From a virus, in the IMG/VR virus record IMGVR_UViG_3300044615_000409, positions 37,505 through 101,504 of that record: a stretch of 64,000 nucleotides of DNA, one strand, 5' to 3'. Both the position numbers and the translations under genes were made by a program. The notes below the pieces were generated by a model. The model searched no databases. It had not been told where the DNA came from and was given only the letters and a program-made list of their open reading frames with translations. This document shows positions 51,482-61,269 of the stretch, in pieces (the stretch's first letter is position 1; every line of letters starts with the position of its first letter).

Positions 51482-51502
51482 GGCGTCGTAAGTTGTTGAT
51501 TT
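51482..51502 (-). repeat. AAATCAACAACTTACG box upstream of early promoter
   Basis: AAATCAACAACTTACG, two variable bases, then GCC, 10 bases upstream of the -35 of the VWA promoter. Identical in the fixed positions to 54172-54192. It overlaps the last codons of nadE, so part of it is coding. Confidence 0.5.
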
Positions 51503-52259
51503 ATTTAGGCTTTTTAAATACGGGAATACTGTTCATTTTATGCAGATTCCTAGCACGTATTTTGCGATATTTGGCTAAGTCTCTTTTAAGTTTTGAGCAA
51601 GTGACTTCTTCTCCGGACTCATCTAGGTGCATAGCCATTTCTAATTCATCATAACTCATACCAAGTTGGTCCTCGTCATTGCGACCGTCATCCCATAATC
51701 CATCCGTGGGGGGTGCATTGATGATCTCTTGTGCGATACCCAATTCACGACCTAACTCCCATACTTCAGATTTCATTAGATCGCCGATTGGGCTGATATC
51801 AACACCACCATCACCATATTTGGTAAAGAAACCTACACCAAAATCTTCTACTTTGTTACCAGTACCAACAACGATACCATCCATGTGTTGTGCTACCTGG
51901 TATAGTGTCAACATGCGCATTCTACTACGTGAGTTAGCAAAAGCCAAATCACTATTGAAGCCCAATGTAGTCATTCGTTTTTCAAATACCGCAAACTGTT
52001 TGGTTAGGTCTACGTTGACATGAACCACATTACTAAAATAATTTTCTACCAACCATTCTGCATGTTTGATACTCAGTTCGTGGGTACGTTTACTTTGTTT
52101 GATGGGCATAGTCAATACATACGTGAGAATGTCTGTATTTGCACACAATGTACTAACCACTGCACTATCGATGCCGCCGGACACTCCGACGACCAGTGTC
52201 TTGATCTTGTTACGCTTGGCGTAATCTTTAATCCATTTAGTTATTTGTTTATGTAGCAT
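51501..52259 (-). CDS. nadE: NH3-dependent NAD+ synthetase
   Basis: A 252-residue enzyme that amidates nicotinate adenine dinucleotide to NAD+. The ATP-pyrophosphatase P-loop VVGVSGGIDSAVVSTL lies at about residues 22-37; GTGNKVEDFGVGFFTKYGDGGVD (split here by function: Glu and Asp ligands) and PIGDLMKSEVWELG are the usual NadE blocks, and PPTDGLWDD closes the site. Length is that of a full single-domain enzyme. A structured leader with the ribosome site in a stem precedes it. A partner NMNAT-like gene is at 54466-55323. Confidence 0.92.
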   Translation of the reverse strand: MLHKQITKWIKDYAKRNKIKTLVVGVSGGIDSAVVSTLCANTDILTYVLTMPIKQSKRTHELSIKHAEWLVENYFSNVVHVNVDLTKQFAVFEKRMTTLGFNSDLAFANSRSRMRMLTLYQVAQHMDGIVVGTGNKVEDFGVGFFTKYGDGGVDISPIGDLMKSEVWELGRELGIAQEIINAPPTDGLWDDGRNDEDQLGMSYDELEMAMHLDESGEEVTCSKLKRDLAKYRKIRARNLHKMNSIPVFKKPK

Positions 52260-54465: not shown

Positions 54466-55323
54466 TCACTTGAGTCCCATCTCCTGTCGGATCTTTGTTG
54501 CGGAGATACTGTGAGTTGCATCATCAAACACCTCTTGCTCAATCTTATAACCTACATCACGCCCATACGTGATGTTCACAATATTGGGCACTACTTGTAT
54601 AGTATACATGCCTTGATAGAGAGGGTCAAGATCACGGCGTATGCGATCAGTAACTTGCTCAATCGCAAATGGATTACTGCCCTGCCAACCCTGACAGTCA
54701 CGTATCATGATACACACCTGACCCGTTTTTGCCAACGCACGTTCAAATAAAGCACGATGACCCTTGTGCCATGGTTGCCAGCGACCTAGCATCTGTACTG
54801 TTTCTTTCTGCCAATCAAACACAGGTCTACGCTCATTGTTTAGTATCTTCTGCCCTATGTATGAAGCCCAGTAATCTGCATTCTGCTCGTTGATACGGAA
54901 GTCATAGACGGTGGGTGGCACAAACGCTTTGTTAGTATCTTCAAACCTACCCTCGTCAATAGTATCTACCCATACAACCCAATCTGCTTTATAATTATTA
55001 CGCATCTCTGGCAATGGTGCTACGAAATCACAGATGACATAATCACCTGCTGAAGCCAATGCAAAGTCTAGCATACGAATACTTTGACGTATGCGACCCT
55101 CTTTACTGAAATCCCAATCGTTGAAACGCTTGCGAACATCATCAGCATTGAACCAATCAACTGTTGCTGACCAATTTTGTGGTGCCATCTCATACTGTGA
55201 CATACGTTCGAACGACATATGTTGTATGGTGCTATAATCTTCTAGATATTTTTTAAGTCTTTCTGCTAGATATGTCTTCCCCGATCCGGGAAGGCCCATG
55301 ATTAGTATTCTTTTTGCGGTCAT
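54466..55323 (-). CDS. Bifunctional APS-kinase-like / NMNAT-like nucleotidyltransferase
   Basis: A 285-residue two-domain protein. Residues 1-165 resemble APS kinase: P-loop MGLPGSGKTYLAERL, then WFNADDVRKRFNDWDFSKEG and DYVICDFVAPL. Residues 170-285 form a nucleotidyltransferase: LGRWQPWHKGH (H-x-G-H), GSNPFAIEQVTDRI and a C-terminal ISATKIRQEMG. The H-x-G-H, N-P-F and I-S-x-T-x-I-R set resembles NMN adenylyltransferases. With nadE nearby it could serve NAD synthesis, but cytidylyltransferase activity is also possible. AAGGGG precedes the ATG. Confidence 0.78.
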   Translation of the reverse strand: MTAKRILIMGLPGSGKTYLAERLKKYLEDYSTIQHMSFERMSQYEMAPQNWSATVDWFNADDVRKRFNDWDFSKEGRIRQSIRMLDFALASAGDYVICDFVAPLPEMRNNYKADWVVWVDTIDEGRFEDTNKAFVPPTVYDFRINEQNADYWASYIGQKILNNERRPVFDWQKETVQMLGRWQPWHKGHRALFERALAKTGQVCIMIRDCQGWQGSNPFAIEQVTDRIRRDLDPLYQGMYTIQVVPNIVNITYGRDVGYKIEQEVFDDATHSISATKIRQEMGLK

Positions 55324-55335
55324 ATTTTCCCCTTG

Positions 55336-57843
55336 TTAAAATTTACCGTTTGTATTTAACTGGGGTGGGATACCCGCACGACTTATTTTGCTATTGAATG
55401 CACTAGCATTCTTTTTGATACTATCGGGCTTGACATCCACTGTCAATGCCGTCTTGAAACGTGGATCATTTTTCTGTTTTTCGCTAGGGATATATCCTGA
55501 TGCTTCATTGACAGGTTTTTTCAATATCTCAATGACTTTATCTGCGGCGGCTTTTATTGCTTTATCATATCCCATCTCTTTTGCTTCTTCTCTGGATTTA
55601 CCCAAGAATTGTTTAAGCATAGTTTTAGCAACATCCAACATTACTTTTTTCTGATCGGGATGATTGTATATTCGTTGTAATTGACTTTCACGCTGATAAT
55701 AACTAGAGTAACCAATAGCATCGGCCAAACTTTGTAAGTCGTATCTCCTACTTTGTAGTGTTGGGTTACGATTATCAAACATCTTATGTTGTTTAATAAT
55801 TCTAGGATCTAATACAACACCTTGTGTTGGTTCATTGTAAGCAATCCATCCAGCACCCGGATCGTATACGCTAGTAAAGCCTAACTCTCTTAATATTTTA
55901 TTCCAACGAATTACATTAGTTTCATCACTTTTGCCTAGTCTACTCAAGCAATCATAAATGAACCAATATGGCGTACCATCATATTCTGGATCGTCAATTG
56001 CTTGTTGTATTACTTCTTCAGGACAATATTGAAGCAATGCTTTTTTTAATTTAGCAGGATCAACTTTTGTTTCTTTTGTCATTTCATTTGAACGGTCATA
56101 TTGAAACAATTGTATATAAGGGAAGTTATCTCCCCATGGAAGTGATTCGTCACGGTCGGCCATTTGCATAAAGTATCGTAATGGATAAAAGTAAATGCCT
56201 TTAGGTGTGTCTTCGCTAACAGCCGCACGTGGATTAACGCCTAACTTAGGCTCCGCAGTCATACTAACAGCCCAATTGTCTATGTCATTAATATTATCTT
56301 CGGCGTAATTAATAAGGTCATATTTTCCAGACCCACTTCTCATATTTTGATTTGGGTTTCTACGTGCTTCGTCAACTTCTTTGTTAATTTTATTTAATTC
56401 ATAGATAACTTTGTCACCTGTGTCTGCTCTAAACGCTTTAAAGCCCCAGGCTCTAGCATAACGCTGAACTAAACTGTCATATAATCTTGCGCGGCTTTGT
56501 GATTTTTGTCCATCTTCAACTTCTTTGCTGGCTGAAAAGAATACTCTTTTTGGTTTGTATTTTTTAATAAATGTTTGAATAGCACTTAGTACAGTGGCAA
56601 ACACACGCTGTTGATCACCTTCGCCTGTGACTTCTTGGCTGTTGTTTCTAAAGAACTCAACACTCCATGCCTCTTCTTTAGTACCTTGGCTAAATCCCTT
56701 GTTAAACATGATACTTAGATAATTACCATCATCTAATTTTGTGTATGCGTCAACATCACCGTGATCACCTTTTGACCATCTAAGTTTGTAAGGTTTATCA
56801 AATGTTTCATTGACATTGTATGTAGGATCAACTTTCTGACCCTTCATAGGTTCATGACCTTTAGGATCAATGTCAGTTACATCTAATCCTGTTTTCTTTA
56901 ATGCTTGAATATATTGATGTTCTAAATCTTCGTCACCGAAACTTAATATAGTGCTTGGTGGTCCTTTACCGAAGTCATGTTTACCTAGACCCTTCATATT
57001 ACTGATATGCTGTCCTAGTTTATACCAGTCATAGACATCACTGACATCTACACGTATTGTACCTTGAGGCATAGTAGGCGGAAATTCTGGGCCTGGTGGA
57101 GGGCCGTTTGGATCATAATCTTCGCCCATCTCGTTGGCTAAACTTAATTCTCTACTGTGCAACTCTTGTTTCAAATCCCACAGTGCTTTAAATAATCCTT
57201 GCTTGCGTACAGCCTTAAATGCTAGATTTTCAGGACCAAACTCACCTGTTTGATCTAATCCTGATTTGCGATATCTCTTAATGATATCTAATACACGCTC
57301 TACATCTTTTAGGTTTTTAGTCTTTAATGCTAGTTCTATCAACTCACCTAGTTTCTCATACTTCGCTCTGGTTCTGTCTTGATCAAAGTTGGCTTTACGT
57401 TTGACAGGAACTCTAGTCCATGCTTTCTTTAATAGGCTATATTCTCCTAGACTATGGTGTGGTTGTTCACTATCCTGAACGTATAATTCTACGGGTATAC
57501 CACGTATTTTTAAATCATGTGAATTATTGTATTCATTCTTTTTCGCATTAAACAACTCACGATAAACCTCATCATTAGATAGTTTATCCATGTCTACAAG
57601 AATATGCAAGTCTATGTCGCTATGCGGAGTGTATGAGTAGGCCGCGTTACTACCGCTTATAGTAATATCCTCTACCTTGAGTTTTCCTATACCTAGTTCG
57701 GACATGAAGTCTTCAGCCATAGTCATGAGTTTGGCATAGACTGCAGGATCTAAATCATCCCCGATCCAAAGTTTGGGGTTGAGTTCGTTGTGGAATTTCA
57801 CCGCATCAGCAAGTCTAAATGATTCAAGTTCTTTTATGTCCAT
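55336..57843 (-). CDS. Large Pol-beta-type nucleotidyltransferase protein
   Basis: An 835-residue multidomain protein. Near residues 60-80 it has ITISGSNAAYSYTPHSDIDLHIL, the G-S...S-D-x-D-[LI] site of Pol-beta-fold nucleotidyltransferases, with a possible third carboxylate in GIPVELYVQD. A helical region follows. About residues 340-490 hold a second domain (KRVFFSASKEVEDGQKSQSR, GFKAF) resembling an acetyltransferase-type fold. A C-terminal domain includes IYFYPLRYFMQMADR. Start MDIKELESF. It may be a virion-associated or toxin-like enzyme; the target is unknown. A late box ends 5 bases before the ATG. Confidence 0.7.
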   Translation of the reverse strand: MDIKELESFRLADAVKFHNELNPKLWIGDDLDPAVYAKLMTMAEDFMSELGIGKLKVEDITISGSNAAYSYTPHSDIDLHILVDMDKLSNDEVYRELFNAKKNEYNNSHDLKIRGIPVELYVQDSEQPHHSLGEYSLLKKAWTRVPVKRKANFDQDRTRAKYEKLGELIELALKTKNLKDVERVLDIIKRYRKSGLDQTGEFGPENLAFKAVRKQGLFKALWDLKQELHSRELSLANEMGEDYDPNGPPPGPEFPPTMPQGTIRVDVSDVYDWYKLGQHISNMKGLGKHDFGKGPPSTILSFGDEDLEHQYIQALKKTGLDVTDIDPKGHEPMKGQKVDPTYNVNETFDKPYKLRWSKGDHGDVDAYTKLDDGNYLSIMFNKGFSQGTKEEAWSVEFFRNNSQEVTGEGDQQRVFATVLSAIQTFIKKYKPKRVFFSASKEVEDGQKSQSRARLYDSLVQRYARAWGFKAFRADTGDKVIYELNKINKEVDEARRNPNQNMRSGSGKYDLINYAEDNINDIDNWAVSMTAEPKLGVNPRAAVSEDTPKGIYFYPLRYFMQMADRDESLPWGDNFPYIQLFQYDRSNEMTKETKVDPAKLKKALLQYCPEEVIQQAIDDPEYDGTPYWFIYDCLSRLGKSDETNVIRWNKILRELGFTSVYDPGAGWIAYNEPTQGVVLDPRIIKQHKMFDNRNPTLQSRRYDLQSLADAIGYSSYYQRESQLQRIYNHPDQKKVMLDVAKTMLKQFLGKSREEAKEMGYDKAIKAAADKVIEILKKPVNEASGYIPSEKQKNDPRFKTALTVDVKPDSIKKNASAFNSKISRAGIPPQLNTNGKF
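55352..55359 (-). promoter_or_regulatory. Late-promoter-like box (TTAAATAC)
   Basis: TTAAATAC near the end of the upstream gene, before the kinase/nucleotidyltransferase gene starting at 55323, which has its own AAGGGG site. Weak match. Confidence 0.35.
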
Positions 57844-57857: not shown

Positions 57858-57884
57858 AAAAAGAAAGGCCCCTTAAGGCCTTTC
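57858..57884 (-). terminator. Intrinsic terminator of the tmRNA transcript
   Basis: GAAAGGCC / GGCCTTTC, 8-bp stem (57863-57870 with 57877-57884), 6-base loop, followed on the minus strand by TTTTT. Confidence 0.92.
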
Positions 57885-57923
57885 CCGACTGTTGGTTACA
57901 AGGTTGTCAACCCCGGCTTAGCC

Positions 57924-57956
57924 TCAAGCGGCTAGAGCATATACGCTATCGTTTGC
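57924..57956 (-). other. tmRNA tag reading frame: ANDSVYALAA-stop
   Basis: GCA (resume codon) through TGA encodes ANDSVYALAA. E. coli uses ANDENYALAA, so both the start (AND) and the protease-recognised end (YALAA) are kept and only the middle differs. The tag ends in the hairpin TAGCC-GCTTGA-GGCTA. Confidence 0.93.
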
Positions 57957-58043
57957 GTTTACTTTGTTTTGCTAGAATTACGTTCTTCGCCTATCGGATC
58001 GTCCACTCTGTTACTCTTTGCCCTGTCGAATCTAGTCAGGCCC

Positions 58044-58102
58044 ATCATAAACATACTATCTCTACTTAAAGTTTATCAGCAAGCCGACACACAGTATGTT
58101 TA
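58044..58102 (-). other. tmRNA intervening segment removed during maturation
   Basis: Lies between the CCA end and the mature 5' end. Its two ends are inverted repeats (CATAAACATACT at 58046-58057 and AGTATGTTTATG at 58093-58104), so the acceptor helix continues for about 13 more pairs with one mismatch before a loop of about 35 bases. This long helix would bring both mature ends together for RNase P and 3' processing. Confidence 0.85.
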
Positions 58103-58172
58103 TGGTGGACCTGGCGGGATTCGCACCCGCGTCCAGAACACTTTTTACTTCGCTTCATACGATCATAAAAAT

Positions 58173-58565
58173 TTACTCTTTACAAGTACGTTCTCTATAA
58201 ATCTTTCCGTCTTCAGTCATCACTTCTTTCCAATCTGTACAAACTTTAACAGTTTGAATCTGTTGAATGATCACTTTTTCTTCTTTTTCTTTGTCTCTGG
58301 CGTTAGCATCAGCAATGACTGCACCTAGAATCACTCCACCCACTAGTGGTGCTACCCAATTATCATGGTGACGATGTACGATGACAGGGTGATGTCTGTG
58401 ATGATTCCAATGATGACGATTGTGCATATGGTGATGCACAACAACCGGGGCATGTCTAGTGAAACATGATGGATGTTTATGGTCAACACCTGAGCGGCAA
58501 TCGATGCCACCTGCATTTGCGGCTACAGCAAAAAGACCTAGAAAAATTGCTAGAATTGCTTTCAT
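58173..58565 (-). CDS. Secreted His-rich protein
   Basis: A 130-residue protein with a clear signal peptide (MKAILAIFLGLFAVAANA, cut before G19). Residues 30-70 are extremely His-rich (HHHMHNRHHWNHHRHHPV), which suggests metal binding. A Gly-rich hydrophobic segment (APLVGGVILGAVIADA) follows, then a Cys-containing tail (VCTDWKEV...ERTCKE). No family is recognised. It has a late promoter and AGGAGAAC, and the tmRNA acceptor piece starts right after its stop, so one transcript probably carries both. Confidence 0.78.
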   Translation of the reverse strand: MKAILAIFLGLFAVAANAGGIDCRSGVDHKHPSCFTRHAPVVVHHHMHNRHHWNHHRHHPVIVHRHHDNWVAPLVGGVILGAVIADANARDKEKEEKVIIQQIQTVKVCTDWKEVMTEDGKIYRERTCKE

Positions 58566-61148: not shown

Positions 61149-61226
61149 CTATAGATATTCGTATTTGTCAAGAAATTCTGGTTTATCTCTAGCACCTGCA
61201 GATGCCTTGATCCTACTTATAGCCAT
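61149..61226 (-). CDS. Possible very small ORF in the gap before the methyltransferase gene
   Basis: ATG at 61226 opens 25 residues (MAISRIKASAGARDKPEF...). Codons upstream stay open to about 61263 and read PTFWCKVCRTA, a C-x2-C pair, but contain no ATG, GTG or TTG. Either a longer protein starts at an unusual codon, or only the short form is made, or it is not a gene. Confidence 0.3.
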   Translation of the reverse strand: MAISRIKASAGARDKPEFLDKYEYL

Positions 61227-61269
61227 CGCTGTGCGACAAACCTTACACCAGAAGGTAGGGCGGCTGTGA

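Follow-up and report, generated by a model that had tools for sequence, protein, structure and literature searches.

The window analysed here, a 64,000-nucleotide stretch that makes up the final 64 kb of a 101,504-base virus record, is confirmed to contain a complete two-piece (circularly permuted) tmRNA gene, in which the CCA-ending acceptor half is encoded before the mature 5' half on the same strand and is separated from it by an intervening sequence (spacer). The parts of the gene and the two genes that flank it are as follows, listed 5' to 3':

58173..58565, minus strand: 130-aa gene upstream of the tmRNA, His-rich, with a signal-peptide-like start and no family
about 58164 (where the models place the 5' end of the acceptor half) to 57858 (T-run of the terminal hairpin), minus strand: the permuted tmRNA gene
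58103..58164, minus strand: 3' (acceptor/T-arm) half, encoded first, from the RF04321 alignment; the T-arm GCGGG-TGCGAAT-CCCGC lies within it
58107-58113, minus strand: acceptor 3' strand, followed by the encoded ACCA at 58103-58106 (RF04321 alignment)
58044..58102, minus strand: spacer of 59 nt, between CCA and GGG, predicted to be missing from the mature RNA
58091..58102, minus strand: 5' arm of the spacer closing helix, TAAACATACTGT, covarying and in fixed register
58060..58090, minus strand: loop of module M1, GTGTCGGCTTGCTGATAAACTTTAAGTAGAG, a core common to tmRNA spacers and tRNA-side hairpins
58048..58059, minus strand: 3' arm of the closing helix, ATAGTATGTTTA, covarying and in fixed register
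58044..58047, minus strand: TGAT preceding the mature 5' end, opposing ACCA with one conserved C.A mismatch
57885..58043, minus strand: 5' (mRNA-like) half from the RF04321 and RF01850 alignments, its 3' end approximate, with the acceptor 5' strand (58037-58043, GGGCCTG), the D-loop region, the tag frame and a downstream pseudoknot-type region
57924..57956, minus strand: tag frame ANDSVYALAA plus stop (ARAGORN)
57858..57884, minus strand: terminal hairpin GAAAGGCC/GGCCTTTC followed by TTTTT, terminator-like (read from the sequence)
55336..57843, minus strand: 835-aa gene downstream of the tmRNA, with weak NTP_transf_2 and DUF6934 matches

The gene was identified by two Rfam covariance models and by ARAGORN, all of which agree. 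On the minus strand of the window RF04321 gave a match of 133.4 bits (cut-off 47, E 6.5e-26) that covers model positions 1-213 of 213, and RF01850, the model of the betaproteobacterial subtype, gave 128 bits (cut-off 84, E 1.1e-38) over model positions 1-331 of 331; the latter alignment spans the 3' pseudoknot and terminal hairpin region of that subtype, to which the gene is assigned. ARAGORN, which is independent of the Rfam models, called a permuted tmRNA with the tag ANDSVYALAA. The precursor fold is unusually stable (z -3.5; 0 of 100 shuffles were equally stable), and in the predicted fold the acceptor stem runs on into the spacer hairpin. Because of the two E-values, the ARAGORN call and the stability of the fold, a chance origin of the match is excluded. 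A preliminary description of this DNA had proposed a complete permuted tmRNA at 57863-58172, close to the extent of about 58164-57858 found here, and had named a covariance-model search as the check; in that search the permuted model RF04321 covered both halves. The structural details of that description were borne out as well: the acceptor half ends with ACCA at 58103 and the mature 5' half opens with GGG at 58043, all seven acceptor-stem pairs are formed (58043-58037 with 58113-58107), the alanyl-tRNA synthetase identity pair G3-U70 is present as G58041-T58109, the conserved D-loop region reads CTAGATTCGACAGGG, and the tag frame at 57956-57924 has the codons GCA AAC GAT AGC GTA TAT GCT CTA GCC GCT TGA.

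The terminal hairpin aligns to the last hairpin of RF01850 and was not listed by a simple local terminator scan, probably because G-U pairs extend its stem into the T-run. At the other end of the gene, 9 nt separate the stop codon of the 130-aa gene from the acceptor half. No confident promoter assignment was achieved for the tmRNA gene; the late-promoter motif TATAAATA occurs four times in the window (6.5 expected) and CTAAATA ahead of a start codon three times (4.2 expected). Transcription of the tmRNA may require read-through from the 130-aa gene.

The terminase of this phage falls in the T4 superfamily (matches to phrog_2 and phrog_36964, and to T4-like isolates), but the best isolate matches of the large terminase are PA5oct-like jumbo phages (PA5oct, 286 kb, 50% identity), and the same protein is 78-100% identical to that of many metagenomic contigs, one of them 524,565 bases long. 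By sequence comparison the phage belongs with the PA5oct-like jumbo phages, and the earlier label "T4-type" is not supported. The statement that the tmRNA is embedded in late genes was not upheld: upstream of it lie genes for a small hypothetical protein, a methyltransferase-like and an S-adenosylmethionine decarboxylase-like protein, downstream of it nucleotidyltransferase-, NAD- and kinase-related genes, and these auxiliary or unassigned neighbours are 18-26 kb away from the virion, endolysin and terminase genes. Two of the downstream genes, a kinase / nicotinamide-nucleotide adenylyltransferase-like gene (54466-55323, minus) and an NAD synthetase gene (51501-52259, minus), lie within 4 kb and form a possible NAD-rebuilding set; such sets are known in phage counter-defence. 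Two RNA motifs of other families were seen in the window. A COG2908 motif (61221-61265, minus; 70.9 bits, cut-off 58.7) lies between the S-adenosylmethionine decarboxylase-like and the methyltransferase-like genes, and a freshwater-2 motif (2904-2979, minus; 66.4 bits, cut-off 49.9), which suggests a freshwater origin of the phage, ends on the likely start codon of frame 1791-2960 (no family).

Permuted tmRNAs were already known from phages, and the gene itself is of a known kind, since two-piece tmRNAs have been published for marine phages and examples exist in cultured ones. Phage tmRNAs are recorded in PMC4131195, in PMC7162821 and, with 79 phage sequences, in PMC11915505; in 2022, of 133 unique phage tmRNA structures, 53 were classed as two-piece, almost all of them aquatic, and two-piece tmRNAs were described in the Methylophilales phage Melnitz and in pelagimyophages (PMC9004378). 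Among cultured phages the tmRNAs of Marzo, X1, Rb1 and vB_Af_QDWS595 were found to be permuted, that of the Stenotrophomonas phage Marzo (Menderavirus) carrying a GenBank tmRNA annotation and proving permuted on our inspection. With these and the at least 176 viral genes collected below, the view of the preliminary description that such a gene is unusual in a phage is not supported. The window gene resembles the RF04321 and RF01850 families in the order of its halves, acceptor stem, T-arm, G3-U70 pair, D-loop TCGAC, resume region, ALAA tag and terminal hairpin; it differs from the sampled betaproteobacterial genes, which mostly read CCC and have spacers of 23-42 nt, in being phage-borne, in encoding CCA and in having a 59-nt spacer with a structured module. 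With Melnitz and the pelagimyophages it shares a permuted tmRNA, T4-like genes, an absence of integration evidence and the same functional proposals, whereas in Melnitz the tmRNA is of the alphaproteobacterial type and has a glutamine riboswitch linked to it (PMC9004378) and that of the window is betaproteobacterial-type, sits in a jumbo-type phage and has no riboswitch match in the gene. Very large phages have been described with ribosome-rescue genes, tmRNA and SmpB (PMC7162821), whereas no SmpB was found in the lineage of the window; the gene form and the spacer are not described in the available part of that paper.

The spacer is the most informative part of this tmRNA gene; how is it built, and are its features shared? 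In the window the 59-nt spacer is closed by a 12-bp helix (the R1 match covers 58048-58102). For comparison we assembled a census of at least 176 distinct viral permuted genes from two pattern scans of viral contigs and from relatives; because it consists of the matches listed, mostly from metagenomic contigs, percentages drawn from it are descriptive. Among the matches listed, 167 viral genes have spacers of at least 22 nt, and in these the register of the helix is fixed, in that the k-th nucleotide following CCA is the partner of the k-th nucleotide before the terminal TGAT: the first ten positions are 90.5% paired in this register compared with 41-57% when it is slid by 1-3, and many positions show at least four pair types. 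The TGAT terminates 129 of 166 viral spacers among the matches listed, and it faces ACCA between the helix and the acceptor stem, where A73, C75 and A76 are paired and the conserved C.A mismatch occurs. The four cultured phages, Marzo, the Xanthomonas phages X1 and Rb1 and the Alcaligenes phage vB_Af_QDWS595, have the closing helix and terminal TGAT as in the window, with spacers of 57, 126, 107 and 74 nt, respectively, and with bodies and spacers that differ from those of the window.

We considered and rejected the idea that the closing helix is a phage novelty, as bacterial (betaproteobacterial) genes have one too (88% paired, 22 genes). In betaproteobacterial genes the last position of ACCC pairs with the G of GGAT, so that CCA/TGAT and CCC/GGAT covary. 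The alignments of the Rfam permuted tmRNA models leave the spacer unpaired and lack the closing helix; adding this covarying helix to the public models could improve the prediction of gene ends. The helix likely holds the two halves together and presents both ends for cleavage. One permuted tmRNA (L217, 1501-1726, minus) reads CCT at the CCA position and has AGGT at the opposing spacer end, so that four of four positions pair and its CCA would need post-transcriptional synthesis.

Viral spacers among the matches listed have a median length of 81 nt (range 4-415). Bacterial spacers, in a sample biased to high-scoring genes, were mostly 22-47 nt with outliers to 126 nt (alphaproteobacterial-type), and PMC2704228 quotes 75-125 bp for the permuted tmRNA genes that it treats, so that short spacers are not universal in bacteria. 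The spacer loops form families that are common to tmRNAs with quite different bodies. For example, the spacers of L076 and L085 are identical over 87 bases while their 5' halves are 82% identical and their acceptor stems differ, and the M1 loop of the window occurs also in L072, with just 64% identity between the 5' halves of the two genes. Scanning for the M1 pattern gave 23 contigs, with nine distinct tmRNA spacers, four hairpins 5' of phage tRNA genes, and one truncated copy that is likewise a tmRNA. In the four hairpins the core ends 15-24 nt before tRNA-Met, tRNA-Cys or tRNA-Gly in phage tRNA clusters. The M1 helix is 99.2% paired in register (28-53% when slid), and four of its pairs are changed on both sides. 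Two further modules were recognized: M2 is present in the spacers of 16 tmRNAs and at two places immediately downstream of tRNA-Leu, and M3 in 11 spacers, all of them in tmRNAs.

Searches for M1 elsewhere gave no diverged copies by an M1 model in about 190 sources, no match in any record of the collection of isolated phages and none in 398 Pseudomonadota genomes, this last search having been run without a positive control. No Rfam family was found in the spacers of nine relatives and 15 further loci, and positions 58035-58112 at E 10 gave nothing beyond eukaryotic matches at chance level (E 0.47 and 3.6). A self-cleaving ribozyme of the HDV type was considered and set aside, since pairing between the cleavage-site strand and the 3'-most strand does not fit that fold. 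In both settings M1 lies next to a site of RNase P or tRNA 3' processing; the simplest interpretation is that it would be a small RNA set free by maturation of the tRNA type, and in the window M1 is probably freed as a small RNA by the cuts that excise the spacer. The spacer of another viral locus (L218, 1501-1799) has two hairpins with T-arm-like loops, GTGG-TTCAATT-CCAC and GAGG-TTCGAAT-CCTC, within the closing helix.

Spacers also carry protein genes. The orthologous locus L212 has homologous flanks (79% and 90%), and its tmRNA is 95% identical to that of the window in the acceptor half and about 89% in the 5' half; in place of the 59-nt spacer of the window it has one of 415 nt with a 133-codon ORF. 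We counted an ORF as nested when its Shine-Dalgarno sequence and start codon followed CCA directly, with the Shine-Dalgarno sequence close to where the spacer begins; spacer frames that are simply open throughout were excluded from the count, because shuffled sequences yield these in about 20 of 69 cases. By this definition 33 of 143 viral spacers of at least 60 nt among the matches listed have a nested ORF, compared with a mean of 5.0 and a maximum of 14 in 100 rounds of shuffling. The Shine-Dalgarno sequence begins at spacer position 1-4, within the closing helix, in all 33, and the helix is kept (9.3 of 10 pairs, compared with 9.2 of 10 in non-coding spacers). For 20 of the 33 the terminal TGAT supplies the stop codon, its TGA abutting the mature 5' end. 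Homologous pairs of nested ORFs differ mainly at third codon positions (L347 and L371 have 4, 2 and 13 changes at codon positions 1, 2 and 3), and such comparisons of aligned codons show apparent purifying selection on the nested ORFs. Many of the predicted products are single hydrophobic segments of 23-27 residues; one belongs to PF03692 (E 1.3e-6), and a PF09791 domain (E 1e-11) is encoded by a different family of spacers. The filter passed only two GTG frames when applied to 21 sampled bacterial spacers of 40-200 nt; both are in related genes and lack the fixed placement. The PF09791 (Oxidored-like) domain was seen in the tmRNA spacers of L099, L420 and L428, where its frame extends without a stop beyond the upstream edge of the spacer, as far as an ATG within the conserved GTATGAAG of the acceptor half; the protein may thus overlap that half.

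We found no earlier description of the spacer as an exchangeable slot in the open-access literature. PMC11915505 notes one tRNA-Ala and one repetitive element within permuted tmRNA spacers; these are single cases from cellular genomes or bins, and recurrent RNA modules or protein genes are not mentioned there. An exchangeable spacer that holds RNA hairpins or whole small protein genes thus appears to be new. We regard it as about an even proposition that this slot carries cargo, in the sense that modules and ORFs would be exchanged within it and freed or exposed by maturation, so that processing and expression would be coupled. The window spacer carries M1 and that of the close relative L212 a small protein gene. 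In relatives of the ORF type the ribosome-binding site is in the helix ahead of the cut ends, so that translation may compete with maturation; alternatively, translation might follow release of the spacer. If the cargo reading is confirmed, an RNA segment regarded as waste would be a conserved, exchangeable expression site, which could account for the frequent retention of the two-piece form by aquatic phages; small membrane and metal-binding-like proteins would have been placed in a slot inside an RNA gene, where annotation programs are prone to skip them; and phage tRNA clusters and tmRNA would be linked through common RNA modules.

A competitor to the cargo reading, which we find somewhat doubtful yet credible enough to keep in view, is that M1 and the nested ORFs are of no benefit to the phage, being selfish insertions sheltered by their place in a piece of RNA that is removed. 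Such elements would account for an almost unchanged M1 core on tmRNA bodies that have diverged and next to tRNA genes, although this near-identity stems in part from the exact pattern by which M1 was found, and also for the spacers of L076 and L085, identical over 87 nt on bodies that are 82% identical. However, no mobility gene accompanies M1 in its 59 nt, some M1 copies lie outside any tmRNA, and the nested ORFs appear to be under purifying selection and stand in exact register with both stop codon and closing helix.

The tmRNA itself is conserved in this lineage. It is identical in two more assemblies of the same phage (L202 and L203), which have 7-13 mismatches over 13-14 kb and none in the tmRNA. 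The 130-aa gene is followed by a permuted tmRNA at nine of the ten loci that encode it (two of them being the same phage), and the tenth has only 191 nt of downstream sequence; the relatives with a permuted tmRNA downstream have 100, 72, 53, 50 and 49% protein identity, and the gap between gene and tmRNA is 36-43 nt in the closest relatives and about 1 kb in one group. The tags of the lineage (ANDSVYALAA, ANDSTYALAA and ANDNYYTEELRLAA) are all intact. The tag of the close relative L212 is ANDSTYALAA, with its Ser codon changed from AGC to TCT and Ser retained, and the T-loop and D-loop have changed together, TGCGAAT occurring with AGATTCGAC and GGCAGTG with AGGATCGAT. On these comparisons the permuted tmRNA is old in this phage lineage, and the upkeep of the tag, the Ser codon switch and the loop co-change look like the pattern of a functional RNA under selection.

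We consider it highly probable that the tmRNA gene of the window is functional in this large phage, giving a two-piece RNA that is processed by the host and used in ribosome rescue, with an exchangeable spacer slot. Rescue was the role put forward in the preliminary description, and we accept it as the most likely one. The gene would most likely be transcribed together with the upstream gene, and the acceptor stem, ACCA/TGAT and closing helix would fold as one long hairpin, from which host RNase P (on the 5' side) and host 3'-end nucleases would excise the spacer. The halves would remain paired and be charged with alanine through G3-U70; the two-piece tmRNA would then bind host SmpB, which we assume to be present, rescue ribosomes stalled in infection, and append ANDSVYALAA for host proteases, also assumed to be present. 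No SmpB gene was found in the record itself or in 20 relatives, including the 524-kb contig, and a working tmRNA would accordingly need SmpB from the host.

The same lack of an SmpB gene in these phages would suit a decoy, a tmRNA that binds host SmpB or stalled ribosomes and mainly inhibits or diverts the tmRNA of the host, and there is precedent in the tRNA-like-domain-only tmRNA of mycobacteriophage DS6A (or a similar molecule), which inhibits tmRNA, perhaps by titrating SmpB (PMC4131195, PMC11915505). A decoy would have no need of a tag, however, and a tag frame with an ALAA or RLAA end is kept in divergent relatives, with the synonymous Ser switch, and for this reason we think a decoy improbable. 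We hold it unlikely to a similar degree that the tag is the main selected product, sending host or phage proteins to proteases by means of a modified tag, rescue being secondary. The tags of viral permuted tmRNAs do vary strongly, some being long or non-canonical (DNHIDYRMAA, ATADTFDFSAMSFTGNTVRGAANDSRFALAA), and degradation of host proteins has been proposed for Melnitz (PMC9004378), but the tag of the window is an ordinary ANDxxYALAA in which nothing indicates redirected proteolysis. Recent capture of a host gene that is functionless in the phage, as a passenger or a misassembly, is very improbable even though tmRNA genes are frequent sites of integration and recombination (PMC11915505, PMC4131195), given the same gene in three assemblies, synteny kept over deep divergence, structural constraint on both body and spacer and, as a weak test, the lack of a match to the 5' half in seven betaproteobacterial genomes.

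Unusual tags were seen at several other viral loci (L037, L100, L104, L059, L109, L009 and L034) and range from DNHIDYRMAA to frames of 31 residues, for example ATADTFDFSAMSFTGNTVRGAANDSRFALAA. The same pattern scan also found tmRNAs of the standard, unpermuted form on other viral contigs (L020, L050, L063, L081, L017, L051 and L096).
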